From Lichenibacterium dinghuense (GTDB lineage Bacteria; Pseudomonadota; Alphaproteobacteria; Rhizobiales; Beijerinckiaceae), in contig NZ_JAJLMN010000001.1 of NCBI RefSeq assembly GCF_021730615.1, positions 1,736,501 to 1,800,500 on the forward strand: 64,000 nt of DNA. Reading direction: 5' to 3'. Position numbers and translations under genes: made by a program. The notes under the pieces were generated by a model, which was given only the letters and a program-made list of their open reading frames with translations, did no database searches and had not been told where the DNA came from. This document shows, piece by piece, positions 8,972 through 47,312 of the stretch (positions are counted from its first letter, which is position 1; every line of letters begins with the position of its first letter).

Positions 8972-9156
8972 CGGCCGCGGCGGCGGGCAGGCGCCGGAGG
9001 GCCCGCTGTTGCGCCGCGGCATGGATCGGCGCTATCGTCGGACCAATCGACTGGACCCGGTGAGACCCCGGGTGGCTCCTCCGGCCGCCGATCCGCCGGA
9101 CCACGCAGGGGGTTCCGCCGCGCAGCGCGCCGGCCGTCCCCGCGAGACTCTCATCC

Positions 9157-16531: not shown

Positions 16532-18013
16532 ATGACCGATGCCAACCCGCCGGCCGCCCGGCCGGCCCCGCAGCCGCTGAACTTCCGCTTCATCGCCCTG
16601 ATCGTGGCCAGCGCCATGTTCATGGAACAGCTCGACGCCACCATCCTGGCGACCGCGCTGCCCACCATGGCGCGCGACTTCGGCGTGCTGGCGCCCAACA
16701 TGAGCGTGGCGCTGACCGCCTACCTGCTCAGCCTCGCCATCTTCATCCCGGCCAGCGGCAAGGTGGCGGACAAGTTCGGGGCGCGAACCGTCTTCGCCGC
16801 CGCCATCGCGGTCTTCATGCTGGGCTCGGTGCTCTGCGCCCAGGCGCCCAACCTGCCCCTGTTCGTCGCGGCGCGCGCCTTTCAGGGCCTCGGCGGCGCG
16901 ATGATGATGCCGGTCGGCCGGCTCGTCCTCCTGCGCTCGGTCGAGCGCCGCAACCTCGTCTCCGCCATGTCCTGGCTGCTGGTGCCGGCCATGATCGGCC
17001 CGATCCTCGGCCCGCCGGTGGGCGGCTTCATCGTCACCTACCTCGACTGGCGCTGGATCTTCTACATCAACGTCCCCATCGGCCTCCTCGGCCTCGGGCT
17101 CGTGCTCCGCTTCATCGCCAACACCCACGGCGAATCCGCCGGGCCCTTCGACTGGTCCGGCATGGCGCTGTCCGGGATCGCGCTCGGCTGCCTGTTCTTC
17201 GGCTTCGAGCTCGCCAGCCACCCGGACCTCGTGCGCCTCGTGGTCGCGCTGCTGGCGGTGGGCTTCAGCGTCGGCTTCCTCTACGTCCGCCACGCCCGCC
17301 GCACGCCCGACCCGATCATGGACCTGTCGCTGATGCGGCTGCCCTCCTTCGGCACCTCCGTCATCGCCGGCTCGCTGACGCGCATCACGCAGGGCGCGCA
17401 GCCGTTCCTGCTGCCGCTGATGCTGCAGCTCGACTTCGGGCTCTCGGCCGCGCAGAGCGGCGGCATCGTGGTCGCGACGGCGCTGGGCTCCATGTCCATG
17501 AAGGCCTTCGCGCCCGGCATCCTGCGCCGCGTCGGCTTCCGCCGGAGCCTCATCGCCAACGGCGTGATCTCGTCGCTCGGCTACGCCACCTGCGCGCTGT
17601 TCCGCCCGAACTGGCCGTTCCCGGTCATCTTCGGCATCCTGATGCTGTGCGGCTTCTTCATGTCGTTCCAGTTCACCGCCTACAACACGGTGGCCTACGA
17701 CGCCGTGCCGCCCTCGCGCATGAGCGCGGCGACGAGCTTCTACACGACGTTCCAGCAGCTCATGCTGTCGGTCGGCATCTGCACGGCGGCGCTGGCGCTG
17801 GAGGCCTCCATGGTGTTCACCGGCCACGCCCACCCGCAGCTCGGCGACTTCTCGGCCGCCTTCCTGGTGGTCACGGCCGTGTCGATCTGCTCGACCTTCT
17901 GGAACGTGCGCTTCGCGCCAAGCGCCGGCGCCGAGATCAGCGGCCACCGCCGCCCCCGCAAGGTGACGGCCGCGGCCCTCAGCGACGGCTACGACCGCGC
18001 CGAGTCGGCGTGA
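16532..18013 (+). CDS. MFS drug-efflux-type transporter (DHA2/EmrB-like)
   Basis: A 493-residue major-facilitator protein with about 14 helices, as in the DHA2 subgroup. TM1 carries LDATILATALPTMARDFG, the DHA2 motif, and loop 2-3 carries GKVADKFGARTVF (motif A). TM5 has the antiporter-type motif C (VPAMIGPILGPPVGGFI). The predicted activity is proton-driven export of a small hydrophobic compound. Its stop codon overlaps the GTG start of a cytochrome P450 gene in a GTGA arrangement, so the two are translationally coupled and may handle the same compound. There is no adjacent membrane-fusion protein. Confidence 0.9.
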   Translation: MTDANPPAARPAPQPLNFRFIALIVASAMFMEQLDATILATALPTMARDFGVLAPNMSVALTAYLLSLAIFIPASGKVADKFGARTVFAAAIAVFMLGSVLCAQAPNLPLFVAARAFQGLGGAMMMPVGRLVLLRSVERRNLVSAMSWLLVPAMIGPILGPPVGGFIVTYLDWRWIFYINVPIGLLGLGLVLRFIANTHGESAGPFDWSGMALSGIALGCLFFGFELASHPDLVRLVVALLAVGFSVGFLYVRHARRTPDPIMDLSLMRLPSFGTSVIAGSLTRITQGAQPFLLPLMLQLDFGLSAAQSGGIVVATALGSMSMKAFAPGILRRVGFRRSLIANGVISSLGYATCALFRPNWPFPVIFGILMLCGFFMSFQFTAYNTVAYDAVPPSRMSAATSFYTTFQQLMLSVGICTAALALEASMVFTGHAHPQLGDFSAAFLVVTAVSICSTFWNVRFAPSAGAEISGHRRPRKVTAAALSDGYDRAESA

Positions 18014-19236
18014 CGGCCGGCGCGGCCCTCCCGCCCACGCTCCGCATCGACGCCGCGCGCGCCCGCGTGCGGCTGTCGCCGACCGACCCGGCCTTCGTGG
18101 CCGACCCCTATCCGAGCTATCGCGCGATCCGCGAGGCCTGCCCGCTGTTCGTCTGGGAGGACTACGGCCACCTCTGCGCGGCCGACGCCGCCACGGTCGA
18201 CGCGCTGTTCCGCGACCGGCGCTTCGGCCGCGAGGCGCCGGGCCGCCCGCCCCCGCCCGAGCACACGCGGCCCTTCCACGACCTCGACGCCCTGTCGATG
18301 CTGGAGCGCGAGCCCCCGGCCCACACGCGGCTCCGCCGCCTCGTCAACAGGGCCTTCGTGTCCCGCGCCGTGGAGCGCCTGCGCCCGCGCGTCGAGGCCC
18401 TGGCCGACGCGTTGCTCGACGCCTTCCCGTCGTCCGGCCCCTTCGACCTCCTGCCGCTCTACGCCGAGCCGATCCCGGTGGCCCTCATCGCCGAGCTGCT
18501 CGGCGTGCCGGGCGCGGACGCGCCGCACCTCCTCGACTGGTCGCACCGCATGGTGGCCATGTACCGCCCCGGACGGACCCGCGCCGACGAGGACGCGGCC
18601 GTCGTGGCGGCGCTCGGCTTCTCGGCCTACCTGCGCGGCCACCTCGCGGAGCGCCGCGCGCGGCCCCGCGACGACCTCCTGACCCTTCTCGCGACGGCTC
18701 CCGCCTCGGAGATCTCGGAGGACGAGGCGGCGGCCAACGCGGCGCTGCTGCTCAACGCCGGCCACGAGGCGACCGTGCACGCCCTCGGCCTCGCCGCCGC
18801 ATCGGTGCTCGGCTCGGGGCTCGACCCTCGGGCGCTGTTCGCGACGCCGGAGCGAACGGCCGCGACGGTCGAGGAAGCGCTGCGCTTCGAGCCGCCGCTC
18901 CACCTCTTCACCCGCACCTGCCTGGAGCCCGCGCGGGTGGCGGGCGTGGATTTCGCGCCGGGGACGACGGTCGGCCTGCTGATCGGGGCGGCCGACCGCG
19001 ACCCCGCCCGCTGGCCGGCGCCGGACCGCTTCGATCCCTTCCGTGCCCCGGCCGCGCATGTCGCCTTCGGCGGCGGCATCCACTTCTGCCTCGGCGCGCC
19101 CCTCGCCCGGCTGGAGCTGGAGGTGGCGCTGCCGCGGCTCTTCGCGCGGCGCCCGCGGCTGCGCCTGGCCGGCGAGCCCCGCTTCGCCGACCGCTACCAC
19201 TTCCGCGCGCTGGAAGCGCTGGAGGTGAGAGGCTAG
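18010..19236 (+). CDS. Cytochrome P450 (bacterial class I type)
   Basis: A 408-residue soluble P450. Diagnostic parts: I-helix LLNAGHEATVHALG (about 250), K-helix EEALRF (ExxR), and the heme loop FGGGIHFCLGAPLARLE with the Cys ligand (about 357). The pattern and length fit the bacterial CYP107-like soluble enzymes that take electrons from ferredoxin. The start GTG at 18010 overlaps the upstream MFS stop, and the first conserved P450 motif (DPAFVADPYPSYRAIRE) begins about 25 residues in. No ferredoxin or ferredoxin reductase gene is adjacent. The substrate is unknown. Confidence 0.92.
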   Translation: MTAGAALPPTLRIDAARARVRLSPTDPAFVADPYPSYRAIREACPLFVWEDYGHLCAADAATVDALFRDRRFGREAPGRPPPPEHTRPFHDLDALSMLEREPPAHTRLRRLVNRAFVSRAVERLRPRVEALADALLDAFPSSGPFDLLPLYAEPIPVALIAELLGVPGADAPHLLDWSHRMVAMYRPGRTRADEDAAVVAALGFSAYLRGHLAERRARPRDDLLTLLATAPASEISEDEAAANAALLLNAGHEATVHALGLAAASVLGSGLDPRALFATPERTAATVEEALRFEPPLHLFTRTCLEPARVAGVDFAPGTTVGLLIGAADRDPARWPAPDRFDPFRAPAAHVAFGGGIHFCLGAPLARLELEVALPRLFARRPRLRLAGEPRFADRYHFRALEALEVRG

Positions 19237-19249
19237 GCCCTCCGTCCCG

Positions 19250-19330
19250 TCACTGCGGACGGCGGCGCGTCATCGACATGGCGAGGACGAAGCCCAGGAT
19301 GAGGGCGGCGGTCCAGAGCGTGCGGGCCAT
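19250..19330 (-). CDS. Possible 26-residue membrane peptide
   Basis: A short open frame begins with ATG at 19330, preceded by an AGGGGA ribosome-binding site. It encodes one hydrophobic helix (TAALILGFVLAMSM) followed by a basic TRRRPQ tail, a positive-inside layout typical of small single-pass peptides. It lies convergent with the P450 gene. It is too short for statistics, so it remains a candidate. Confidence 0.35.
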   Translation of the reverse strand: MARTLWTAALILGFVLAMSMTRRRPQ

Positions 19331-19456
19331 GATGTCGTCCCCTGTTCGACGTGTCGCGTTTGGCGGTTTCCGGACTGGACAAACCGCGCGAAGGCGCATC
19401 CGTTCCCGCCGGGGCGGGCCGAATCGCCCCACCGTCGCCGCAGGAGCGCCGCAGCC

Positions 19457-20158
19457 GTGACGATCGACCTCGTGTGCCTCGATGCCGACGACACGCTGTG
19501 GCACAACATGCGCCACTTCGAGGCCGCCGAGCGCGCCCTCTTCGACCTGCTCGCGCCCTTCGCCGCGGCGGGCGTGTCGCGGGCGGCGCTCGACGCCGCG
19601 GAAGCGCGCAACCTCCCCCTCTACGGCTACGGCGCCAAGGGCTTCACCCTGTCGATGGTCGAGGCCGCCGCGGACCTGCTCGGCCCGGCGCTGACGGCCG
19701 GCACGGTCACCGCGATCCTCCGCGCCGGCCGCGACCTCCTGGCCCACCCGGTCGAGCTGCTGCCGGGCGTGGACGCCGCGCTCGACGCGCTGGCGGGCCG
19801 CGCGAAGCTCGTGCTCGTCACCAAGGGCGACCTGCTCCACCAGGAGACCAAGCTCGCCGCCTCCGGCCTCGGGAGCCGCTTCGCCGGCGTCGAGATCGTG
19901 TCCGACAAGACCGCCGCCACCTACGCCCGCGTGTTCCGAACTCACGGCGTCCCGCCGGAGCGGGCCCTGATGGCGGGCGACTCGCTGCGCTCCGACGTGC
20001 TGCCGGCGCTCCAGGCGGGCGCCTTCGCGGCCCACGTGCCGCACGGGGTGCCCTGGTCGCACGAGCGCGCGGAGGAGCCGGACCACCCGCGCTACCGCCG
20101 GCTCGCCGCGCTGGCGGAGCTGCCGGGCTGGATCGACGCGATCGGCAGGGGGCTTTAA
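19457..20158 (+). CDS. HAD-superfamily phosphatase
   Basis: A 233-residue HAD hydrolase. Motif I is DADDTLWHN (residues 6-14) with both catalytic aspartates; motif II is LVTKGD; the motif III Lys lies in SDKTAATY; motif IV is MAGDSLRSDVLPAL. The inserted helical cap between motifs I and II makes it a subclass I member like phosphoglycolate phosphatase and related enzymes. The substrate is unclear. GTG at 19457 is the start, with CAGGAG ten bases upstream. The thioesterase gene follows 31 bases after the stop. Confidence 0.88.
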   Translation: MTIDLVCLDADDTLWHNMRHFEAAERALFDLLAPFAAAGVSRAALDAAEARNLPLYGYGAKGFTLSMVEAAADLLGPALTAGTVTAILRAGRDLLAHPVELLPGVDAALDALAGRAKLVLVTKGDLLHQETKLAASGLGSRFAGVEIVSDKTAATYARVFRTHGVPPERALMAGDSLRSDVLPALQAGAFAAHVPHGVPWSHERAEEPDHPRYRRLAALAELPGWIDAIGRGL

Positions 20159-20189
20159 GCTCGCGGCCCCGCATCCGAGGCATCGCCGC

Positions 20190-20591
20190 ATGAGCCCGAT
20201 CCCCGCCCCGCCCGGCCTGCCCGAGGCCGCGCCCCACGTCCGCGTCATCGCCATGCCGGCCGACACCAACCCGGCAGGCGACATCTTCGGCGGCTGGCTG
20301 ATGGCGCAGATGGACCTCGCGGCCGGCAACGCCGCGGCGCGGCGGGCGCGGGGGCGCTGCGCCACCGTGGCGGTGAACGAGATGACGTTCCACCAGCCCG
20401 TGCTGGTGGGCGACGAGGTGAGCTTCTACGCCGCGATCGAGCGGGTGGGGCGCACCTCCATGGTGATCCGCGTCGAGGCGTGGCGCCGCTCGCGCGACGC
20501 CGACGAGGTGGGCCGCGTCACGGGCGCCACCTTCACCTTCGTGGCGATCGGCGACGACCGCCGCCCCCGCGCCATCCCGCCCGAGGGCTGA
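20190..20591 (+). CDS. YciA-like acyl-CoA thioesterase
   Basis: A 133-residue hotdog-fold protein. The conserved hexamer-type signature is present: MPADTNPAGDIFGGWLMAQM (residues 23-42), with the catalytic Asn/Asp region, then VNEMTFHQPVLVGDEVSFYA. Members hydrolyse acyl-CoA esters of various lengths. Length and motifs match YciA and cytosolic acyl-CoA thioesterases. ATG at 20190. The gene lies between a HAD phosphatase and motA, all on the plus strand. Confidence 0.9.
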   Translation: MSPIPAPPGLPEAAPHVRVIAMPADTNPAGDIFGGWLMAQMDLAAGNAAARRARGRCATVAVNEMTFHQPVLVGDEVSFYAAIERVGRTSMVIRVEAWRRSRDADEVGRVTGATFTFVAIGDDRRPRAIPPEG

Positions 20592-20684
20592 CGCTCCCCT
20601 GCCAGCCCCGCGCAAGCGGCCTGCCGTCCCATGGACCTCGCGAGAGCCGCACCCGTCCCCGCGGTGCGGCCGGAGGTCCATCCC

Positions 20685-21566
20685 TTGAGCTTCATCATCG
20701 GCATCGTCGTGGCCCTGGGCTGCATGATCGGCGGCTACGTCGCCGCCGGCGGCCACCTCGGGGTGATCTGGCAGCCCTACGAGCTGATCATCATCTGCGG
20801 CATGGCGCTCGGCACCTTCATCGTCGCCAACCCCCTGTCCACCATCAAGGACACCGGCAAGGCGATCGGCCAGGCCATCATGGGCAAGACGCCCAAGAAC
20901 CGCGACTACCTCGACCTGCTCGGCATCCTGTACACGCTGATGAAGGAGCTGCGCGGCAACGCCCGCAACGAGGTCGAGGGCCACATCGACAATCCGAAGG
21001 AGTCGGCCTTCTTCCAGAAATATCCGAAGGTGCTGGCCGACACCGACATGACGGCCTTCATCTGCGACTATTGCCGGCTGATCATGATCGGCAACGCGCG
21101 CAGCCACGAGATCGAGTCGCTGATGGACGAGGAGATCAACACCATCATGCGCGACAAGCTGAAGCCCTACCAGGCGCTGCAGAACACGGCGGACGGCCTG
21201 CCGGCGCTCGGCATCGTGGCGGCCGTGCTCGGCATCGTCCACGCCATGGGCTCGCTCGACCAGCCGCCCGAGGTGCTGGGCGAGCTGATCGGCGCCGCGC
21301 TGGTCGGCACCTTCGCGGGCATCTTCCTGTCCTACGGGCTCGTCGGCCCGCTCGCCACCATGGTCAAGGTCACGCGCGACAAGCGCGCGCGGCTCTACGT
21401 CATCATCAAGCAGTCGCTGCTCGCCTTCATGAACGGCGCCGTGCCGCTGATCGCGCTGGAACACGGCCGCAAGACCATCTCGGCCTACAGCCGGCCCTCG
21501 ATCGACGAGGTCGAGAACGAGACGATGGGCGGCGGCGCGGCCGAGCCCGCCAAGAAGGCGGCGTGA
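20685..21566 (+). CDS. motA: Flagellar stator protein MotA
   Basis: A 293-residue MotA with four membrane helices (about 2-22, 30-55, 180-200, 215-240). The proton-channel Pro segment is [18 protein letters not shown] in TM3, and the large cytoplasmic loop lies between residues 60 and 175. With MotB it forms the proton-driven stator of the flagellar motor. I chose TTG at 20685 because GGAGG sits 8 bases upstream and TM1 ([16 protein letters not shown]) begins at once; an upstream ATG would add 18 Pro-rich residues before TM1. fliM starts one base after its stop. motB is not in this window. Confidence 0.95.
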
Positions 21567-21567
21567 G

Positions 21568-22482
21568 GTGACGGCGACCCCGTCCCCGGAGGCGCCGCGG
21601 CGCTGGTTCGACCGCGGCGCCCCGAGCCTCGCCGACCGCATCCCGCTCTTCGCCGAGGCCATGGGCCTCGTCGCCGCGGCCTGGACCGACGGCTTCGCGG
21701 CGCTGACCGCGACGCCCGCCGCCTTCACCTTCGCGGGGCTCACGGAAGCGCGCGTCGCGGCGCTGCCGCTGCGGCGCGGGCGCGACCCCGTCTTCGCGGT
21801 GCTCGACGCGCCGGGCTGGGGCGCCGCCCTCGCGCTGCAGTTCGACCGGGCCTTCGTGTCGACCGTGGTGGAAGCCCTGTTCGGCGGCGACGACGGCGAG
21901 GGGGACGCGGAGGTGCAGGCGGGGCCGCTCACCGCGGTCGAGCGGCGCATCGCCGAGGTGGTGGCCGTGCAGGCGTCCGACGCGCTGAAGGCCGGCTTCG
22001 CCGACGTGCTGCCCTCGTCCTTCCCGTTCGAGCGGGTGCAGGTGAAGCCCGACCTCGCCGTGCTGGGCCGCCCCAACGCGGCCGCCGTGGTGGCGCGCAT
22101 CGTGCTGAAGACGCTCGGCCGCACGGCCGAGATCGACCTCGTCGTCGCCCGCGCGACGCTCGACGGCTTCGCCGACCGGCTGAGCGTGCTGCCCGCCGAC
22201 GAGCCGGAGAACACCGACCCGCGCTGGTCGGAGCGGCTGGAGGGCCAGGTGTCGCGCGCCCCGATGGCGCTGACGGCCGTCGTGGAGCTCGAGCCGATGA
22301 CGCTCGGCGCCCTGGCGGGGCTGAAGGTCGGCCAGACGATGGCGCTGCCGCGCGACGCCGTGCGCGACGTGCGGCTCCTGTGCGCGGGGCGCGAGCTGTT
22401 CCGCTGCGACCTCGGCCAGTCGGGCGGCCACCACACGGTGCGGGTCGACGAGCCCGTGCCGGGCGCGCTGGCCGGCCTCTGA
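21568..22482 (+). CDS. fliM: Flagellar motor switch protein FliM (alphaproteobacterial)
   Basis: A 304-residue product starting with GTG at 21568, directly after motA. The middle domain (about 20-215) is CheC-like, and residues about 230-300 form a SpoA domain (MALTAVVELEPMTLGALAGLKVG, with the GRELFRCDLGQS segment). FliM is the C-ring protein that receives CheY-P. The usual N-terminal EIDALL peptide that binds CheY-P is not visible, so either the alphaproteobacterial variant is divergent or CheY binding differs. fliN and fliG are not adjacent; the next gene is convergent. The motA-fliM neighbourhood supports the call. Confidence 0.85.
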   Translation: MTATPSPEAPRRWFDRGAPSLADRIPLFAEAMGLVAAAWTDGFAALTATPAAFTFAGLTEARVAALPLRRGRDPVFAVLDAPGWGAALALQFDRAFVSTVVEALFGGDDGEGDAEVQAGPLTAVERRIAEVVAVQASDALKAGFADVLPSSFPFERVQVKPDLAVLGRPNAAAVVARIVLKTLGRTAEIDLVVARATLDGFADRLSVLPADEPENTDPRWSERLEGQVSRAPMALTAVVELEPMTLGALAGLKVGQTMALPRDAVRDVRLLCAGRELFRCDLGQSGGHHTVRVDEPVPGALAGL

Positions 22483-22488
22483 ACCCGG

Positions 22489-23568
22489 TCAGGGCTCCTG
22501 CCAGGGCGCCAGCGGGTAGGGCGTGGAGGCGACGGCGCCGTTGCCGTCGATCTGCGACAGCGCGAGGCGGCACAGCACCAGCAGGGCGAAGAGCCCCCAG
22601 TCCCAGCGCTCCATCGCGGGCCCGCGCGCCTGGTGGCGCAGGAAGGCCAGGGCGGGCCCGAGCGTCAGCAGGCACAGCACGCGGGTGTGGTCGAGCGTCG
22701 CCACGCAGCCGACGACCAGCATGGCCGCGGCCCAGCACCCGAGCAGCGCCGCCCCGCCCCGCCCGCCGTAGCGGAACGGCCCCGCGAAGCACCGCACGAG
22801 GAAGAAGGGCACCAGCGCGGCCGAGACCAGCGAGGGCGGCCCGAGCAGCGCCGCGTCGTGCAGGAGGCCCGCGACGAGCCCCCGCGCGTAGCCGGCGCGG
22901 TCGACGAGGCCCGGCAGGACGCGGTGCGCGAGGGCGAGATCGGCCACCCCCGCCAGAAGCACGGCGCCGGACTGCGCCCAGCGCAGCCGCCGCGCCAGCG
23001 CGAGGTCGACCGCCGCGACGCCCGCCGTCGACAGCACGGCGAGGATCGGGTTGCAGAAGGCGGCCAGCACCGAGCCCGCGAGCGCCGGCGCGGGGCGGCG
23101 CCAGGCGGACAGCAGCAGGAACGCCATCAGCCACGGGTCGAACTTGCCGATCCACAGCGCCAGCGTGTCGACGAGGTGCGAGAAGGCGACGAGGAGCAGG
23201 AGGTCGCGGAAGGCGAACTCGCCGCGCCGCAGCCCCACGGCCGCCACGCCGGCGAACAGCAGGAGGCCGAGCCCCCACCAGGTGAGCGCGAGCGCGCCCT
23301 CCGGCACGCCGGCCGCCGCGAGGGCGGAGCCGATGCCGTCGAACAGCAGCCCTTCGAGCAGGAAGCCGCGCGCGGGCGGCACGGGGGCGCCGCGCGCGAG
23401 GCCGACGATGAAGCCCGGCAGGTCGGCGTCCATGACGCGCAGCCCGTCGACCAGCACCACCGGCAGGGCGAGCAGCGCCAGCAGGGCGAGGCGGCCGCCC
23501 CGCGTCGGCAGGAGGCGCAGCGCGGCGGCGCGCGGCCAGGCGGGGAGGGTGTCGGAGCGGTCGAGCAT
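22489..23568 (-). CDS. Polytopic membrane protein of unknown function
   Basis: A 359-residue protein with about nine hydrophobic segments spread across its length. The best visible stretches are near residues 25-45, 85-125, 135-150, 160-175, 195-215, 270-290 and 320-340. Tryptophan-containing loops (IGKFDPWLMAFL) recall GT87-like or DUF2029 glycosyltransferases, but the catalytic Asp motif expected there is not evident. ATG at 23568. It ends 6 bases from fliM, convergently. The P450 gene upstream on the same strand is 84 bases away. Confidence 0.7.
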   Translation of the reverse strand: MLDRSDTLPAWPRAAALRLLPTRGGRLALLALLALPVVLVDGLRVMDADLPGFIVGLARGAPVPPARGFLLEGLLFDGIGSALAAAGVPEGALALTWWGLGLLLFAGVAAVGLRRGEFAFRDLLLLVAFSHLVDTLALWIGKFDPWLMAFLLLSAWRRPAPALAGSVLAAFCNPILAVLSTAGVAAVDLALARRLRWAQSGAVLLAGVADLALAHRVLPGLVDRAGYARGLVAGLLHDAALLGPPSLVSAALVPFFLVRCFAGPFRYGGRGGAALLGCWAAAMLVVGCVATLDHTRVLCLLTLGPALAFLRHQARGPAMERWDWGLFALLVLCRLALSQIDGNGAVASTPYPLAPWQEP

Positions 23569-23652
23569 GCGGCGAGTGTACCGCCGAACGGCGTCAGGGG
23601 AACGCGGCTTCGGCCGGGACGATCCGACCGCCGCCGCGGGCCGAGGCCCCCC

Positions 23653-25095
23653 TCACCGATGCCGCAGCATCATCGGCATGCCGCCGCGCGAGCGCAGGGT
23701 GATGCGCTGCACGGGCATCACCGCGTGGCCGGGGGCGTGGTCGAAGCGGACGTGGCGCAGCGCCGTGGCGAGCAGGATCACCGCCTCCTGCAGCGCGAAG
23801 GAGGCCGCGATGCACACGCGCGGCCCCGCGCCGAAGGGCAGAAAGGCGAAGCGGTCGATGCGGCCGCGGTTCTCGGGCAGGAAGCGCTCGGGGTGGAAGT
23901 GGTCCGGCGCGTCCCACAGCGTCCTGTGGCGGTGGAGCACGTAGGGCGACACGACCACCAGCGTGCGGGCCTTGATGCGCAGCGTGCCGAGCATGTCGGG
24001 CCCCAGCGCCTCGCGGGTGATGGAGGCGGCCGGCGGGTAGAGGCGCATCGCTTCCTCGAGCGCCGCGCGGGTGCGGACGAAGTCGTCGACGCGGGTCGGG
24101 TCGACGCGCCCGTCCGGCATCAGCGCGTCGACCTCGCGCTCGACGGCCTCGCGCTCCTCCGGGTGCTGCGACAGGAGGTAGAGCGCCCAGGTGAGCGTGT
24201 TCGAGGTCGTCTCGTGGCCGGCGATCAGGAAGGTGACGACGTTGGCGCGCACGTCGTCGTCCGACAGGCCGACGCCGGTCTCGGGGTCGCGGGCGGCGAG
24301 CAGCAGGGACAGGATGTCCTGCGGGGCCGGCGCGCCGGAGGCGAGCAGCGCGCGGCGCTTCTCCAGGATGGCGGAAACCTCCTCCTCGAAGTAGCGCAGC
24401 AGCGGGCGCGTGCGGTTGGCGGCGAGGCGCGGCACCCAGGACGGCATGCCGAGCACGTCGAGAGGGTCGAGCTGGCCGGCGGCCTCCAGGAAGGCCGAGA
24501 CCGCGTGCGCGAACCGGTCCTCCGGGCCGCTCATGGCCTCGGAGAAGACCGTGCGGCCGAGCACCCGCAGGGTGGCGCGCGCCATCTCGTTGGCGACGTC
24601 GATGCGGCGGCCGTCCCGCAAGCTCGACCAGCGCCCCACCATCTCGTCCGCCACCTCGACCATGGAGCGCTTGAAGCCCTCGACGTGGCGGGGCGAGAAC
24701 AGCGGCGCCAGCGCGCGGCGCTGCGCGCGCCACTGCTCGCCCTCGGCCAGAAGCAGGCCGGTGCCGAGGCCGCCGCCCAGCGTGCGGCGCTGCAGCTCGC
24801 CCTTGTCGTAGTTGGCGGCGTTGCCGACCAGCACGTGGCGGATGATGGCCGGGTCGCTCACCACGGCGGCGGAGCCCAGCACGTTGCGGCCGTGGACGAT
24901 CGGCTGCTCGAAGTGCCAGCGCGTCCAGGTGGCGACGGGGTTGTCGCGCAAGCCCTTCAGGAGCGCCAGCGTGCCCGGCACCTCCGCGAGCGGCACTGGC
25001 GCCGGCGGCCGCGGACGGCGACCCGCGGCCGCCGGGGCGCGGCGCGGGGGCGCCGGCGGGACTCGGGCCGGCGCGGGATCGAGGGCGAGGGACAT
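23653..25095 (-). CDS. Cytochrome P450
   Basis: A 480-residue P450, longer than the one at 18010 and of the fatty-acid-hydroxylase/CYP102-heme type by pattern. I-helix FLIAGHETTSNTL, K-helix EEAMRLYPP, the PERFLPENR region and the heme loop FGAGPRVCIAASFAL with the Cys are all present. The enzyme would hydroxylate or epoxidise a hydrophobic substrate. ATG at 25095 is chosen since CGGAG lies upstream and the preceding in-frame stretch is Pro/Arg-rich. The N-terminal 35 residues are also Pro/Arg-rich and likely disordered. No reductase domain is fused. It is the last core gene before the accessory island. Confidence 0.9.
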   Translation of the reverse strand: MSLALDPAPARVPPAPPRRAPAAAGRRPRPPAPVPLAEVPGTLALLKGLRDNPVATWTRWHFEQPIVHGRNVLGSAAVVSDPAIIRHVLVGNAANYDKGELQRRTLGGGLGTGLLLAEGEQWRAQRRALAPLFSPRHVEGFKRSMVEVADEMVGRWSSLRDGRRIDVANEMARATLRVLGRTVFSEAMSGPEDRFAHAVSAFLEAAGQLDPLDVLGMPSWVPRLAANRTRPLLRYFEEEVSAILEKRRALLASGAPAPQDILSLLLAARDPETGVGLSDDDVRANVVTFLIAGHETTSNTLTWALYLLSQHPEEREAVEREVDALMPDGRVDPTRVDDFVRTRAALEEAMRLYPPAASITREALGPDMLGTLRIKARTLVVVSPYVLHRHRTLWDAPDHFHPERFLPENRGRIDRFAFLPFGAGPRVCIAASFALQEAVILLATALRHVRFDHAPGHAVMPVQRITLRSRGGMPMMLRHR

Positions 25096-25378
25096 GCGGA
25101 ACTCCGGGCGGCGTCGTCCGGAGGAGATGGGAGGGGGCCGAGGGGGCGGCAAGCGAGGCATGATGACAGGGGGCGCGGAGGCGGGCTTCCGCGGTCAGAC
25201 CGCGAGGCGGCCGGCGACGACCGCCTCCAGTAGGTCCACAGCCGTGTCCGCGACCCGGTCGCCGGTATGGCGGAGGTAGACGGGCGCCGCGGCGTCCTCC
25301 AGGCAGACCATGGGCAAGTCCGAGTCGATCATCACGTTGAACCGCTCCGGGTTTCTCGGAGGCTGATTGGCTTGGAAT

Positions 25379-26601
<1,223 letters not shown>

Positions 26602-27255
26602 GGCTCCAGTCTCGCAAGATCAGGAGCCTCCAGGAAACCCGGAGCGGTTCACGTCGCCGATCGCGTGGCAGTGCCGGCCGTCGATCGTCTCCTCCGGCGT
26701 GAACGCGCCGTCGCCGATCGGGCCGGTTCCGCTTCGTTCGATGCCCAGGCGAACGAAGTGGCTCCGCCCCGACGAGGTGTCAAACCGTCGATCGGAGAGC
26801 TTCCGGAGTCGTGCATCAGTGGGTGTGGGCAGGCTCGGCGTGGGCTGGTGTACGGAGCTGGTGGACCGGTCCTAGGGTCTGTTAGGGCTTGGCTGCAGTC
26901 CCTATCTGGGGTGTATGACCCAGTCTGAAGCGATCGACTTTTCCAACGACGAGGTGTGGGCGCTGTGGGCGCCGCTGATTGAAGCAGTCCGGCCCAAGGG
27001 CAAGACTCTGCCCCAGGACCTGCGGCGCACCCTGTCGGCCATCGTGTGGCGCCACGACAACGGCGCCAAGTGGCGGAGCGTGCCGCCTCACCTGGGCCCG
27101 TGGTGGCGGGCTGCGCAACTGTCGATCCGCTGGTCCAAGCTCGGCGTGTGGCAGCGCCTTCTGGAACTGTGCCAGGAGGGCAACCTGTCGCTGGGCCTCG
27201 TGTTTCTGGACGGCACCGTGATCCGGGCTCACCACAAGGCGGCGGGCGCGGAAAA

Positions 27256-27504
27256 CGTATGGCCCGCCCCGTCGGCAAGCGGTTTCTCGGGTCCAGCTTG
27301 ATCTGTCTGCACAAACGTATCCGGCCTTCCGGCGAGCCGTTGGCCAAGATGGAGAGCCGCGCGTCCTGGTCCCGATAAAAGGGACGGCATCGAGTGCCAT
27401 TTTCCGCGAAGGTTTCCAGGACGCCGGTTGACAGTCAGGCCATCTCCTCGTCGCCACCCACAGACATCGAGGGCCGACGCTCGTTCCGCGTCAGCCGATC
27501 CGGT
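27256..27504 (-). ncRNA. Candidate bridge/seekRNA region of the IS1111-group element
   Basis: This is the 249-bp non-coding end downstream of the transposase. In the IS1111 group, published work places the guide RNA (seekRNA, related to bridge RNAs of IS110) at this end. I see no protein frame of note. The position is the evidence; the structure and guide loops were not derived by eye. Confidence 0.45.
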
Positions 27505-28530
27505 TCAGGCCGCCACGGGCGCGGCCTTGTAGACGTCGCCGTGGCGCAGCAGCGCCCACACGGTGCGGGCCATCTTGGCCGCTAGGGCTACCACGGCCGC
27601 GTTCAGATGTGCCCGGCTGAGCAGCCCGCGCAGCCACGCACCTACCGGCGTGTCCCCCGCCTTCAGCGTCGGCAGGGCGGATCGCGCGCCTTGGATCAGC
27701 ATCTTGCGCAGGTACTTGCTCCCCCGCTTGGTGATGCCGAGCAGCTTCGGTCGACCGCCCGTCGTCACCTGCCGCGGCACGAGGCCCAGCCAGGCCGCGA
27801 GGTCCCGTCCTCGTGCGAAGGTGCTGGCGTCGCCGACGGCTGCCACGAGGGCAGTGGCGTTCAGCGCGCCGATGCCGGGGATGGACAGCAGCCGCTTCGC
27901 GCCGTCCTGCGCCTTGGCGGCGGCGGTGAACTCCGCGTCGAAGGCCTTGATGCGCTCGTCGAGGGCAACCCACTGGCGGCGCATGTCGACGATCAGCTCG
28001 TGGATCCGAGCGGCCAGGACACGTTCCTTCCCGTCGAGTAGCTCGGCCAGGGCGACGGTCAGCCTGGCGCGCCCTTGCGCTACGATGTGGCCGCGCTCCA
28101 GCAGCAGGCTGCGGATCTGGTTCATCAGCGACGTCCGATCACCGACCAGCCTGTCGCGCACGCGGTGGAGCGTCTGCATGTCGAGTTGCTCCTCCGACTT
28201 CATCGTCACGAAGCGCATGGTGGGCCGACCTGCCGCTTCGGCGATGGCTTCGGCATCCCGGTCATCGTTCTTCTGTGCCTTGACATAAGGCCGGACGTAT
28301 TCGGGCGACATGAGCCTGATCTCGTGTCCCTTGGCGGCCAGTGCACGGCCGATGTGGTGCGCCCCGCAGCAGGCCTCCATGGCGACGATGCTGCCCGGGT
28401 ACCTGGAGCAGAACGCGACGACGGTGTCGCGGCGCATGCGCCGGCGCACCAGGACCTTACCGGCCGTATCCACGCCGACGAGGCTGCACGATGTCTTGCC
28501 GAGATCGATGCCGATGATGGAGAGTTGCAT
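27505..28530 (-). CDS. IS110-family transposase (DEDD recombinase)
   Basis: A 341-residue transposase. The N-terminal RuvC-like DEDD domain has GIDLGKTSCSL (first Asp, residue 9), AMEACCGAH (Glu) and KNDDRDAEAIAEAA (later Asp pair). A coiled linker spans about 125-215, and the C-terminal domain has SIPGIGALNATALVA and LAAWLGLVPRQVTTGGRPK followed by ITKRGSKYLRKML, the region of the catalytic Ser. It works with an element-encoded RNA that selects target and donor. Full length, no disruption; the start ATG at 28530 is 78 bp inside the element. Confidence 0.93.
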   Translation of the reverse strand: MQLSIIGIDLGKTSCSLVGVDTAGKVLVRRRMRRDTVVAFCSRYPGSIVAMEACCGAHHIGRALAAKGHEIRLMSPEYVRPYVKAQKNDDRDAEAIAEAAGRPTMRFVTMKSEEQLDMQTLHRVRDRLVGDRTSLMNQIRSLLLERGHIVAQGRARLTVALAELLDGKERVLAARIHELIVDMRRQWVALDERIKAFDAEFTAAAKAQDGAKRLLSIPGIGALNATALVAAVGDASTFARGRDLAAWLGLVPRQVTTGGRPKLLGITKRGSKYLRKMLIQGARSALPTLKAGDTPVGAWLRGLLSRAHLNAAVVALAAKMARTVWALLRHGDVYKAAPVAA

Positions 28531-29218
28531 GGATTTGCTCCGTCCTCACCCGGGTTGCAGCAGCATGCTATCAGCTGCTGCAGAGGGAGGGGCGGGCCAT
28601 CCATAAAAGGGGGTCTCGGGGCCGGAGCGAGACGAGCGTGAAGCGCTGGGCCGCTCTCGTGGCGGCTACGGCACCAAGGCCTGCATGATCTGCGACGGCC
28701 GCGGCCGGCCCGTGGCGTTCCGCCTCGTGCCCGGGCAGGCGCACGAGTTGCCGCAGGCCGGCCCCTTGCTGGCGGGTCTGCCGCGGGCGCCGCAATGGGT
28801 GGTGGCCGACAAAGGCTATGCGGCCCACAGCTTCCGCGACGCGATCTGGGACATGGGCTCCAGACCCGCCGTCCCGACCAAGAGCAACGAGGCGCCCGTC
28901 CGCTGTCCGGCCTGGATCTACAACAACCGTCACCAGATCGAGAACGCCTGGGCGCGCCTCAAGGAATGGCGGGCCGTCGCGGCCCGCTACGAAAAGACTG
29001 CCGCATCCTTCATGGGTGTGCTCTGCCTCGCCGCCGTCGTGCAATGGATCAAGCCCTAACAGGCCCTAGCGCATGGCGGACTTCAGGAGTGTCAGCTTCC
29101 TGGCAGTCCATTTGCACAATGGGACTCTTGCACCAAACGACGACATCCTGCGATAGGCATTATTGAAAACGATTATGTAATTTCGTGGAAAGGGTGCAAA
29201 TGCCTGCACTTCGCAGCA

Positions 29219-30565
29219 TCAACTCTTCAAACGTTCTCTCAGTACCTCCGAATGTCTCGACAGTTGCCCTCGGATAGACGTCTCGCCAACGCCTCCCATT
29301 TTCTTCCTCGCCAGCCTCGCATACCCGCTAATGAAACTGCGCGGGCCGAGATGGGAGTGACGCGCCAGAACCTCACGCTGGTGTAGTACCTTCCGCCCCT
29401 TGATCTCCCCGTGCTTGGCCAGCTTCAACCTCTGCTTGGCCACCCTGACGCCATTCCGCATGCGCCGGTAATACCGAGCCAGCGTTCCGCTCCGGATCAG
29501 CGCCCGGCGGCCATCGAAGGTGAAACCGAGATACTGGAGCGGTTTGACCCGACCTGTCACGGGGCAAGGCAAAAGCGCCGGACCCGGTTTCGAGAACAGC
29601 GCCTCCTCCCGCTTTTGTTCGTTCAGCCACAGGGTCCTCCCGTGCAGCTTCAGCGCCCGATTCACCTCGCCTTCGAGAGCGGCGATGTGCTCGGGCGCGC
29701 AGAGGATGAGGATGTCGTCAGAATAGCGTCTGTAACTGCCTCCGCATGCATCGACTGCTGCCTTCACGGCCGTATCGAATTCGAGCATCGAAATGTTTGC
29801 CGCCGTCGCCGAAAGTGGCGTGCCTTGAGGAATGCCGTGGTTCGCCCTATGGGTGGACAACAGCTTGGAAGGAGCCGCGCTATCGCTTCGGTGGCGGCGG
29901 TATTCGTCGATCGAGCATAGGGGGCGCGGCAGGTCGGCGTCCCTCTTCTTCGGCGAGAGGCCAAGCCGCTCAAGCAGATCAGCGCGATCCATCGTCGCGT
30001 ATCTGGTCAGCGCGCGAAAGACTTTGTAGTGGTCACTGGGCAGTTGCCCCCCGCCGAGCAGGGACGACCAGCAAGCCTTCAAGACCTCATGGCTGATATT
30101 ATCGAAAAAGCCCTTGATGTCGAGGCAGACCGCCGCGCAATCGCCCCGCGCTTGGATCTCGCGAAAAGCCTCCAGCGCGCGGTCGATATTCGACGAGCCT
30201 TTTCGATAACCGATGATGGAATCGCCAAGACCCCGGAGCGCCAACTCGACCTCATATAGTGAGCCCAGACGCTCAGCGTAATATGCGAAAATATATCCGT
30301 CGCGGTTTGACGGATAGGCCAGACCTCGCTCCTTGGTGCTCGCGACCGGCTTCTTCTTGCCAAAATCCCGACGGTAACGCCGCTCGCGTTTCGTGAACGA
30401 GATAAGCGGCAAGAAATCATGCTGGGCGATCGTCGCGGGATTTGACACCAAGCGAAGAGCGTCCGCCTTCGGAAGGCGGCGATCGACATGGACACGCCCC
30501 TTGGCGCTGTACCAGTCGGAGCGTCGAATGATATGGCGCTTTCTCGTTGAGATCAGCATTGGCAA
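29219..30565 (-). CDS. Reverse transcriptase, probably defence-associated (DRT/UG type)
   Basis: A 448-residue RNA-directed DNA polymerase. RT motifs: CLDIKGFFDNISHE (first catalytic Asp, residue 149), HGIPQGTPLSATAANI (243-258), RYSDDILIL (catalytic Asp pair 283-284), LWLNEQKRE and QYLGFTFDG (344-352). There is no maturase or HNH domain and no intron RNA structure, and the retron NAxxH and VTG-family motifs are absent, so it is neither a group II intron nor an obvious retron RT. The N-terminal SDWYSAKGRVHVDRR and the C-terminal YYRRMRNGVR segments resemble RTs of the unknown-group/Abi set, DRT2-like in my recollection, but the subtype is unproven. It lies in an IS-rich island, has lower GC than its neighbours, and is preceded by about 430 bp without a clear gene. 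ATG at 30565; the ATG two codons later is an alternative. Confidence 0.75.
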   Translation of the reverse strand: MPMLISTRKRHIIRRSDWYSAKGRVHVDRRLPKADALRLVSNPATIAQHDFLPLISFTKRERRYRRDFGKKKPVASTKERGLAYPSNRDGYIFAYYAERLGSLYEVELALRGLGDSIIGYRKGSSNIDRALEAFREIQARGDCAAVCLDIKGFFDNISHEVLKACWSSLLGGGQLPSDHYKVFRALTRYATMDRADLLERLGLSPKKRDADLPRPLCSIDEYRRHRSDSAAPSKLLSTHRANHGIPQGTPLSATAANISMLEFDTAVKAAVDACGGSYRRYSDDILILCAPEHIAALEGEVNRALKLHGRTLWLNEQKREEALFSKPGPALLPCPVTGRVKPLQYLGFTFDGRRALIRSGTLARYYRRMRNGVRVAKQRLKLAKHGEIKGRKVLHQREVLARHSHLGPRSFISGYARLARKKMGGVGETSIRGQLSRHSEVLRERLKS

Positions 30566-30994
30566 ACCCGGGGAAGCAGGGGTGTGCGTATACCCCTCCT
30601 TGCGGACGAGGGCCTCCCCGGTGTCTTTGACGCTCCGAAGAACGCCAACGGCTCAGCTCAAAACAGCGTGTCGCGAAACCGCCTATCGATCCTTGCCACA
30701 CATACTCACGGCCCCAACAGGCCGCGACGCAACAGCCAACGTGCGGTGTTATGCTGACCTCGCGGAGGAGGTCATCGTGAAAGTGCTCAGCAACATCGTC
30801 GCTCGGCTCGGCATGTGCGTCATCCGCGCATGCGTCGAAGCCGTCGCGAACTGGTCGCTTGACACCGTCAACACCATCCCCTGACGCAGATCGCCAGGGC
30901 TGGGCTTACATGGGAGGTGAGATGAAAGGTACAAGGGGTCTGCGGAAAAAAAGCGCATTCGGATGGGGGCGCCCAGCAATCGCGGCAATGCGGC
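30566..30994 (-). other. RT upstream region: candidate templating ncRNA
   Basis: There is no convincing protein gene here. On the RT strand it could encode a structured RNA: GACCTC(CTCCGC)GAGGTC near 30755-30772 and GGGGTatacgcacACCCC just before the RT gene can form hairpins. Defence RTs of the DRT2 and DRT9 kinds carry their template RNA directly upstream, so this is where to look. One minus-strand frame is stop-free from about 30911 through to 30417, and one plus-strand frame from 30393 to 30884. No start codon leads the minus frame. Confidence 0.35.
30777..30884 (+). CDS. Possible 35-residue peptide opposite the RT leader
   Basis: GTG at 30777 is preceded by GGAGGAGG seven bases upstream. 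The frame encodes a short, mildly hydrophobic peptide (KVLSNIVARLGMCVIRACV) and ends at 30884. It lies antisense to the presumed RT leader. The GGAGGAGG is also half of a hairpin, so the ribosome-binding site may be coincidental. Low confidence. Confidence 0.2.
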   Translation: MKVLSNIVARLGMCVIRACVEAVANWSLDTVNTIP

Positions 30995-31120
30995 TCAGAA
31001 CGGGAGTTCGTCGTCCTCGACCTTCACCTCTGCCCAAGTGGAAATCACCCGGGACGGCTCTGCACGTCCCTCTGAACGTCCGCAAGATGACGACCCCTGA
31101 ACGTCGGGACCCGGCGCAAA
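30995..31120 (-). pseudogene. Remnant C-terminus ending in an SSB-like acidic tail
   Basis: A minus-strand frame ending at 30995 reads STWAEVKVEDDELPF before its stop. An acidic tail ending in a hydrophobic pair (DDxLPF) is typical of single-stranded DNA-binding proteins, which use it to recruit partners. Upstream codons show no oligonucleotide-binding fold. It may be the cut-off end of an ssb-like gene of a former mobile element. Weak evidence. Confidence 0.2.
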
Positions 31121-31136
31121 CCGGCTTTCCCTCCCC

Positions 31137-32570
31137 TCACCCCATGGGCAGGATCTTCCCCGGGTTCATGATGTCGAGCGGGTCGATCGCCCGCTTCACG
31201 GCGGCCATCATCGCCAGCGCGGCGGGCGGGTGCTCGTCCTTGAGGTAGCCGGCCTTGCCCTGGCCCACCCCGTGCTCGCCCGTGCAGGTCCCCTCCATGC
31301 GGAGCGCGCGGCGCACCAGCCGGTCGAGGAAGGCCTCGACGCGGGCCGTCTCGCCGGCGTCGGTGTCGTCGAACAGGACGCCGAGGTGGAAGTTGCCGTC
31401 GCCCACGTGGCCGACGATGGGCGCCACGAGGCCGGAGTCCGCGATGTCGGCCTGCGTCTCGGTCACGCAGTCGGCGAGGCGCGAGATCGGCACGCACAGG
31501 TCGGTCGAGATGATCTGCGCGCCCGGCCGAAGCGTCAGGCTGGCCCAGTAGGCGTCGTGCCGCGCCTGCCACAGGCGCGAGCGGTCCTCGGGCTGCGTCG
31601 CCCAGTCGAAGGGGCCGCCGCCGAGCTCCCCGGCGATGGCGCCGAAGCTTTCCACCTGCTCGGCCACGGAGGCCGGCGAGCCGGTGAACTCCACGAACAG
31701 GGTCGGCACCTCGGGCAGGCCCAGGCGCGAATAGGTGTTGGAGGCGCGCACCTGCGCCTCGTCGAGCAGCTCGATCCGCGCCACCGGGATGCCGGACTGG
31801 ATGGTGAGGATCGTGGCGTCGCAGGCCGCCTTCACGCTCGGGAAGGGGCACACGCCCGCCGCCGTCGCCTCGGGCAGGCCGCTGAGCTTCAGCGTGATGC
31901 CGGTGATGACGCCGAGCGTGCCCTCCGAGCCCACCATCAGCCGCGTGAGGTCGTAGCCGGCCGAGGACTTCTTGGCGCGCCGCGCCGTCTGCATCACCTC
32001 GCCCTGCGGGGTGACGATCTCCAGGGCCAGCACGTTGTCCTTCATGGTGCCGTAGCGCACCGCGCCCGTGCCGGAGGCGCGCGTCGCCACCATGCCGCCG
32101 AGCGAGGCGTCCGCGCCGGGGTCGACGGGGAAGAACAGGCCGTGGTGGCGCAGGTGGGCGTTCAGCGCCTTGCGGGTGACGCCCGGCTCCACCACGCAGT
32201 CGAGGTCCTCGGCGTGGACGGCGAGCACGCGGTCCATGCGGGCGGTGTCGATCGAGATGCCGCCGAAGGGCGCGTTGACGTGGCCCTCCAGCGAGGTGCC
32301 GGTGCCGTAGGGGATCACCGGCACGCGGTGCCCGGCGCAGAGCCTCACGATCTCGGCCACCTCGGCGGTGGTGTTCGGGAAGACCACGCCGTCCGGCGCC
32401 TCCAACCGGATCTGCGTGCGGGTGTGGCCGTGCTGGTCGAGCACCGAGCGGTTGCGCGAGAAGCGGTCCCCGAAGCGCGCCGCCAGCGCCGCCAGCACCG
32501 CGTCGAGCGCGGCCGCGGGCGGGCGGCGGGCCGCGATGAGGGCGGCGCGCGCGTCGTCGTGGATCAGCAT
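31137..32570 (-). CDS. FAD-linked oxidase, D-lactate dehydrogenase type
   Basis: A 477-residue flavoprotein of the GlcD/DLD family. The FAD-binding (PP-loop) domain covers about 35-220, with VIPYGTGTSLEGHVN, DPGADASLGGMVATRASGTG and GSEGTLGVIT. The C-terminal substrate domain has VGHVGDGNFH and TGEHGVGQGK, the metal/substrate His motifs of D-lactate and 2-hydroxyacid dehydrogenases. Such enzymes oxidise D-lactate (or D-2-hydroxyacids) and pass electrons to cytochrome c or quinone. The lone gene lacks GlcE/GlcF partners, which favours D-lactate dehydrogenase over glycolate oxidase. ATG at 32570. It is the first core gene right of the island. Confidence 0.88.
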   Translation of the reverse strand: MLIHDDARAALIAARRPPAAALDAVLAALAARFGDRFSRNRSVLDQHGHTRTQIRLEAPDGVVFPNTTAEVAEIVRLCAGHRVPVIPYGTGTSLEGHVNAPFGGISIDTARMDRVLAVHAEDLDCVVEPGVTRKALNAHLRHHGLFFPVDPGADASLGGMVATRASGTGAVRYGTMKDNVLALEIVTPQGEVMQTARRAKKSSAGYDLTRLMVGSEGTLGVITGITLKLSGLPEATAAGVCPFPSVKAACDATILTIQSGIPVARIELLDEAQVRASNTYSRLGLPEVPTLFVEFTGSPASVAEQVESFGAIAGELGGGPFDWATQPEDRSRLWQARHDAYWASLTLRPGAQIISTDLCVPISRLADCVTETQADIADSGLVAPIVGHVGDGNFHLGVLFDDTDAGETARVEAFLDRLVRRALRMEGTCTGEHGVGQGKAGYLKDEHPPAALAMMAAVKRAIDPLDIMNPGKILPMG

Positions 32571-47215: not shown

Positions 47216-47312
47216 GGAGGAGAAACGTTCCCCGGTGGGGCGTCCGGACTTCAAATCCGGGAAGGGCTGCGAGCCGGTTCTTGGTGGGTTCGACCCCCAC
47301 TCTCTTCCGCCA
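47216..47312 (+). tRNA. selC: Selenocysteine tRNA (anticodon UCA)
   Basis: A 97-base tRNA. The acceptor is 8 bp (GGAGGAGA with TCTCTTCC), the long D stem CCCC/GGGG is present, the anticodon loop CTTCAAA gives UCA (stem CCGGA/TCCGG), there is a long variable arm, and the T stem GTGGG/CCCAC encloses TTCGACC. The encoded end is GCCA. These features identify tRNA-Sec, which decodes in-frame UGA. It implies SelA, SelB and a SECIS-bearing gene (often formate dehydrogenase) elsewhere; none was seen in this window. Confidence 0.95.

Follow-up and report, generated by a model that had tools for sequence, protein, structure and literature searches.

The window analysed here is a stretch of 64,000 nucleotides from Lichenibacterium dinghuense (contig NZ_JAJLMN010000001.1), and it contains, on the minus strand, a real and intact reverse transcriptase (RT) gene at the place given by the earlier note. 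An uninterrupted ORF covers positions 29219-30565 and encodes 448 aa when counted from its TTG codon; the ATG at 30559, two codons inside the ORF, is the likelier start. The translation contains all three motifs named in that note (LDIKGFFD, PQGTPLSA and YSDD), and the description of a single-domain protein agrees with RVT_1 being the sole Pfam match at E <= 0.01.

The surroundings are an IS-rich island, as had been proposed. One flank of the RT gene carries three transposase elements: at 25379-26601 an IS3-type element with two ORFs (so named on account of its domains), at 27505-28530 a transposase of the IS110 family, and at 28685-29059 a short ORF for a DDE transposase. The two ORFs of the IS3-type element overlap at 26275-26278, and the overlap is spanned by an Rfam ALIL pseudoknot (26204-26320, 111 bits), a frameshift signal of such elements. 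On the opposite flank there is a gene block whose first gene encodes an FAD-linked oxidase. Homology to the same genus begins at 31144-31148, just beyond the ncRNA predicted below, in all five stretches compared, and positions 18001-31143 of the window had no match in any of them. The RT was likewise absent from the five same-genus genomes at E <= 1e-20; a match at this threshold was found in 8 of the 299 genomes searched, including its own. A blastn search of the locus against plasmids gave no match, and a scan of viral contigs returned two distant RTs only. Elsewhere in the window, ARAGORN and Rfam both placed a selenocysteine tRNA at 47216-47308, which suggests selenoproteins in this genome, and Rfam reported the sul1 RNA motif at 9050-9105 (73 bits), a name that refers to an RNA family and not to a resistance gene.

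Judging by curated family models, the RT is a DRT2 (UG2) enzyme. It scored 405.1 bits against the NCBIfam equivalog NF041746 (Drt2; cut-off 390), and the PADLOC Drt2 model matched it at 7.2e-122 (406 bits), with the next family, RT_UG17, at 66 bits. The chains of the solved Klebsiella pneumoniae DRT2 (PDB 9c0i) matched at 7.6e-74 in an alignment spanning residues 17-421 of 448, in which LDIKGFFD and YSDD fall on LDLSGFFD and YCDD. The catalytic aspartates of K. pneumoniae DRT2, described as D140, D269 and D270 (PMC12596737), thus have their counterparts in the window RT. The group II intron RT/maturase model reached 63.9 bits against a cut-off of 300 and the retron RT model 50 bits against 235 (both NCBIfam), while a DGR model was absent among the six NCBIfam matches. 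This outcome upholds the view of a lone defence-type RT and the hunch of a resemblance to DRT2. The suggestion that YSDD and the C-terminal part might place the protein elsewhere has to be given up: K. pneumoniae DRT2 has YCDD at the same point, and the alignment extends to residue 421. An undescribed UG class, the other option raised earlier, was rejected because both libraries assign the RT to Drt2, in NCBIfam above the cut-off, and the group II intron and retron models remain far under theirs. What the earlier note overlooked altogether was the upstream ncRNA with its neo template.

The putative DRT2 ncRNA lies immediately upstream of the RT gene, its predicted 3' end adjoining the start codon (Table 1). 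The hairpin of the 5' handle is matched in folding by 4 of 200 shuffles, and a hairpin occurs at this position in 8 other loci folded as well; the fold of the 3' scaffold (z -2.96) was equalled by none of 200 shuffles. The tower stem of the scaffold was found in the same place, with 8/8 pairs, in all eight loci compared, window included (the Rhizobium-type loci described below stand outside this set), and both of its sides vary at seven of the eight positions. It is followed in the loci compared by a GGTTTTGC-like motif. The stems were counted by a script with a short minimum loop, 8-bp arms and a one-base slack at the 3' arm; under a longer minimum loop the stem was missed in two of the eight loci, L002 and L135. 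The pairs were counted in this way because the MAFFT alignment of the tower is unaware of the stem. Since the script takes the best stem in each locus, part of the compensatory change arises by construction, and the weight of the tower stem rests on its constant place. Each single stem is modestly unusual, being matched by 32-173 of 2000 shuffles (54 of 2000 for the window). An ACA-containing basal stem, which is part of the published DRT2 ncRNA, was not evident in the window. Overall, the predicted 5' hairpin, template and 3' tower are consistent with a structured ncRNA.

Table 1. Position of the RT gene and of the predicted ncRNA and neo elements in the window
Feature	Position	Strand	Remark
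DRT2 reverse transcriptase CDS	29219..30559	-	ATG at 30559; in-frame TTG at 30565
Predicted DRT2 ncRNA (5' handle, template, 3' scaffold)	30561..30900	-	Ends approximate, inferred from other loci
5' handle hairpin, CCCTGGCG-ATCTG-CGTCAGGG	30879..30899	-	Fold z -2.28
3' scaffold tower hairpin, stem CCGGGGAGG/CTTCCCCGG	30568..30621	-	
GGGTTTGCC, counterpart of the GGTTTTGC-like motif after the tower	30561..30569	-	
Candidate ncRNA template, 132 nt	30741..30872	-	Complement (+) = predicted neo repeat unit, 44 stop-free codons, VRCYADLAEEVIVKVLSNIVARLGMCVIRACVEAVANWSLDTVN
GTTG-1, 5' copy of the putative jump microhomology	30869..30872	-	CAAC on +
GTTG-2, 3' copy of the putative jump microhomology	30737..30740	-	
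-35 of the predicted junction promoter, TTGACA	30859..30864	+	
-10 of the predicted junction promoter, TATGCT	30750..30755	+	17 bp past the -35 only once repeats join
Putative neo ribosome-binding site, GGAGGAGG	30764..30771	+	Read from sequence
Putative neo start codon, GTG	30777..30779	+	

When copies of the candidate template are placed head to tail in silico, the pair TTGACA-17-TATGCT forms over each joint and is followed by GGAGGAGG, a GTG codon and 44 stop-free codons. The concatenated template is thus predicted to form a neo gene that is absent from the chromosome. A consensus scan of linear 30500-31200 found no sigma-70-type promoter on either strand, that is, none for the ncRNA itself either. 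According to the published work on close orthologues of K. pneumoniae DRT2, the template there is bounded by ACA, its concatenated complement yields -35 and -10 boxes spaced 17 bp apart, and the concatenated repeat is stop-free and divisible by three (PMC12039810, PMC11100668); the neo preprint describes ACA-1 and ACA-2 as strongly conserved (PMC11100668). The template of the window is flanked by GTTG and not by ACA, so that the locus, though a DRT2, stands outside the K. pneumoniae-like subgroup. Other readings of the jump site were considered: the runner-up candidate in the region scored 8.9 on the scale introduced below, and a further GTTG lying 7 nt downstream of GTTG-2, read from the sequence, would give 139 nt, which is not divisible by three. 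An inverted repeat, GGTGTT/AACACC, was also read at 30745-30750 and 30870-30875 and could serve to close the template.

Candidate neo layouts were scored on the direct repeat, a length divisible by three, an open circular frame, the junction promoter and the ribosome-binding site. The weights of this score are not blind, because the candidate of the window had been seen by eye before the score was written; independent evidence comes from the homologues and from the E. coli controls. The layout upstream of the window RT scored 10.5, a value reached by none of 1000 dinucleotide shuffles (best 10.0) and by none of the 344 other tiles of the window, four of which scored at least 9. Among 384 tiles from loci of other RTs, 23 scored at least 9 and one at least 10; this single tile, at 1441-2160 of the non-DRT2 RT locus L095, scored 10.3, probably by chance. 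Two E. coli loci that RefSeq annotates as drt2 served as positive controls, and in both the best candidate was the published ACA-bounded repeat of 117 nt.

The DRT2 homologues were drawn from plasmid records with a match (28, of which 10 were retrieved), phage records (3, none retrieved) and E. coli records (3, two retrieved), besides the genomes searched. Duplicates (L001, L072, L070 and L077) were left out of the comparison of neo candidates, as were L063, L067, L069, L071 and, initially, L002, where homology begins after query residue 60. A score of at least 9 was found in 17 of 23 upstream regions (window included) versus 36 of 2320 shuffles, a comparison without L135 on account of its short upstream region. 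In the set of 27 loci, made up of these 23 regions and the later additions L002, L135, L143 and L144, 21 scored at least 8.9. In 19 of these 21 the open frame keeps one common register relative to the -10, a property outside the score. Of 176 shuffles with equal scores, 39 share this register, or 59 if those with additional open frames are included. L133 and L138 also pass the score but in a different frame, and their candidates may have been picked wrongly. Hydrophobicity lies outside the score too: the predicted Neo of the window is 61% hydrophobic versus a mean of 42% for shuffled repeats, none of 176 reaching 60.5%. Some passing loci were equalled by shuffles (2/60 for L132, 1/60 for L064, 4/60 for L004 and 2/60 for L135). 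Six of the 27 loci had no strong candidate, scoring below 8.9 (L142, L140, L136, L074, L068 and L003); L140 and L068 rise to 9.7 and 9.3 when a two-base repeat is allowed. No excess of synonymous change was found in the close pairs L137/L139 (6 synonymous and 8 nonsynonymous codons) and L143/L144 (2 and 11).

Two clades were starred in the RT tree, which had 25 rows, left out L003 and L068 and let E. coli drt2 stand in for K. pneumoniae. The E. coli-like clade contained L131, L134, L143 and L144 (96/97). The Rhizobium-type clade comprised seven rows (100/99), among them the Rhizobiaceae plasmids L137 and L139 as well as L065, L066, L073 and L102, whose source genomes belong to the same family or class as the window. 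The window RT falls outside both clades; its branch is long (1.23), and it shares 37-42% identity with its nearest relatives. It pairs with locus L002 of a Marinimicrobia MAG (CANJRX010000001.1) at 94/89, just under the star of the tree tool. L002 has a neo layout of its own (score 9.6, reached by 0 of 60 shuffles), with TTGACG-17-TATAAT, a 120-nt repeat and the junction peptide LDVLN-VNCY where the window has LDTVN-VRCY. The RT of L002 (5990-7310) is frameshifted in the MAG while the neo template looks intact, and the frameshift is either a sequencing error or a recent loss. The microhomology of the Rhizobium-type clade is CGTT, read as AACG, AAACG or TCAACG in the cDNA sense in six of its seven rows; the seventh, L074, is one of the loci lacking a strong candidate. 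From one clade to the next, the geometry is thus retained but the microhomology changes. Directly downstream of the Rhizobium plasmid drt2 in L139, we also observed a gene for an FRG-domain protein (3840-5222), possibly a second defence gene.

One might argue that the window RT, although a DRT2, defends through another cDNA product, and that its neo-like layout is a chance product of GC-rich DNA or is simply unused. Long open frames do come easily in such DNA, no strong candidate emerged in six of the 27 DRT2 loci, and the neo preprint states that Neo is harder to annotate in the divergent clades of DRT2, for which it suggests other mechanisms (PMC11100668). We nevertheless consider this explanation unlikely, as 0 of 1000 shuffles attain the score of the window, the frame register is shared by 19 of 21 loci versus 39 of 176 shuffles, and the tree neighbour L002 has the same layout. 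Still less probable is a DRT2 copy left to decay among IS elements, formerly a defence system and now inactive in its host: the RT is uninterrupted with its catalytic residues in place, and the template is stop-free, divisible by three and equipped with the junction promoter, ribosome-binding site and scaffold hairpin, even though IS elements adjoin the locus, all five same-genus genomes lack it and some related RTs are broken (the frameshifted L002 and the G213 match, which is split and contains stops). Finally, a new UG/DRT class or another kind of RT, such as that of a group II intron or a retron, is scarcely credible despite the long branch, the low identity and a margin of only 15 bits over the Drt2 cut-off, given that this curated cut-off is exceeded, the group II and retron models stay far under theirs, RT_UG17 obtains 66 bits against 406 for Drt2 in PADLOC, and a DRT2-type ncRNA layout lies upstream.

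The reading we favour, with a probability of about 85%, is that the window locus represents a complete DRT2 anti-phage system making neo by template jumping. At the level of sequence, the RT family, the template geometry, the junction promoter, the open frame, the scaffold hairpin and the recurrence of the layout in many DRT2 loci all point to it; cDNA synthesis, jumping, expression, toxicity and defence are what we infer by homology to K. pneumoniae DRT2. In such a system, the RT would bind the ncRNA transcribed just upstream and copy the 132-nt template. The nascent cDNA at the template 5' end would finish in CAAC, the copy of GTTG-1, which would re-anneal to GTTG-2 and let the RT restart, leading to a concatemer whose joints read ...CCGTCAAC-GTGCGGTG... 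with a 132-nt period. Phage infection would then permit second-strand formation, whereupon each joint would bear the junction promoter and RNA polymerase could make a repeat mRNA. Translation from GGAGGAGG...GTG would yield Neo, an endless hydrophobic protein that brings the cell to a halt.

The window locus and its relatives point to one and the same neo mechanism continuing with another microhomology. We consider it fairly probable, if less so than the presence of the system itself, that the ACA jump signal is inessential to DRT2: a microhomology of 3-4 bases (ACA, CGTT, GTTG and others) would drift while spacing, frame and RNA layout are kept. If so, neo genes would be hidden in deep DRT2 lineages where annotation has proved hard, the lineage of the window included, and they could be found by a simple recipe that combines a direct repeat, a promoter spanning the joint and a repeat unit free of stops with a length divisible by three. 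The locus, otherwise one more DRT2, would then make it possible to test directly how the template jump is determined. No mention of non-ACA DRT2 microhomologies was met in the literature searched, in which the neo study figured as a preprint.

Overall, the window locus resembles K. pneumoniae DRT2 in its single RT, in an upstream ncRNA with a 5' handle hairpin, a template and a 3' tower, and in the predicted 17-bp junction promoter, stop-free repeat divisible by three and hydrophobic Neo. It differs in having GTTG in place of ACA, YSDD in place of YCDD, a GTG start and TATGCT, as well as a template of 132 nt versus 111-129 nt in the published close orthologues (PMC12039810, PMC11100668). The template end lies 181 nt from the RT ATG, whereas both E. 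coli loci have about 150 nt there, and the ncRNA is predicted to abut the RT start codon, unlike that of K. pneumoniae DRT2. L002 shares with the window a GTT in the same place, the frame and a junction peptide of the form LD[TV][VL]NV[RN]CY, and departs from it in repeat length, promoter sequence and the frameshifted RT. The Rhizobium-type loci, which form a separate RT clade with another 3' scaffold sequence and an ATG start, have the same geometry and frame as the window, and their CGTT overlaps the position of its GTTG.
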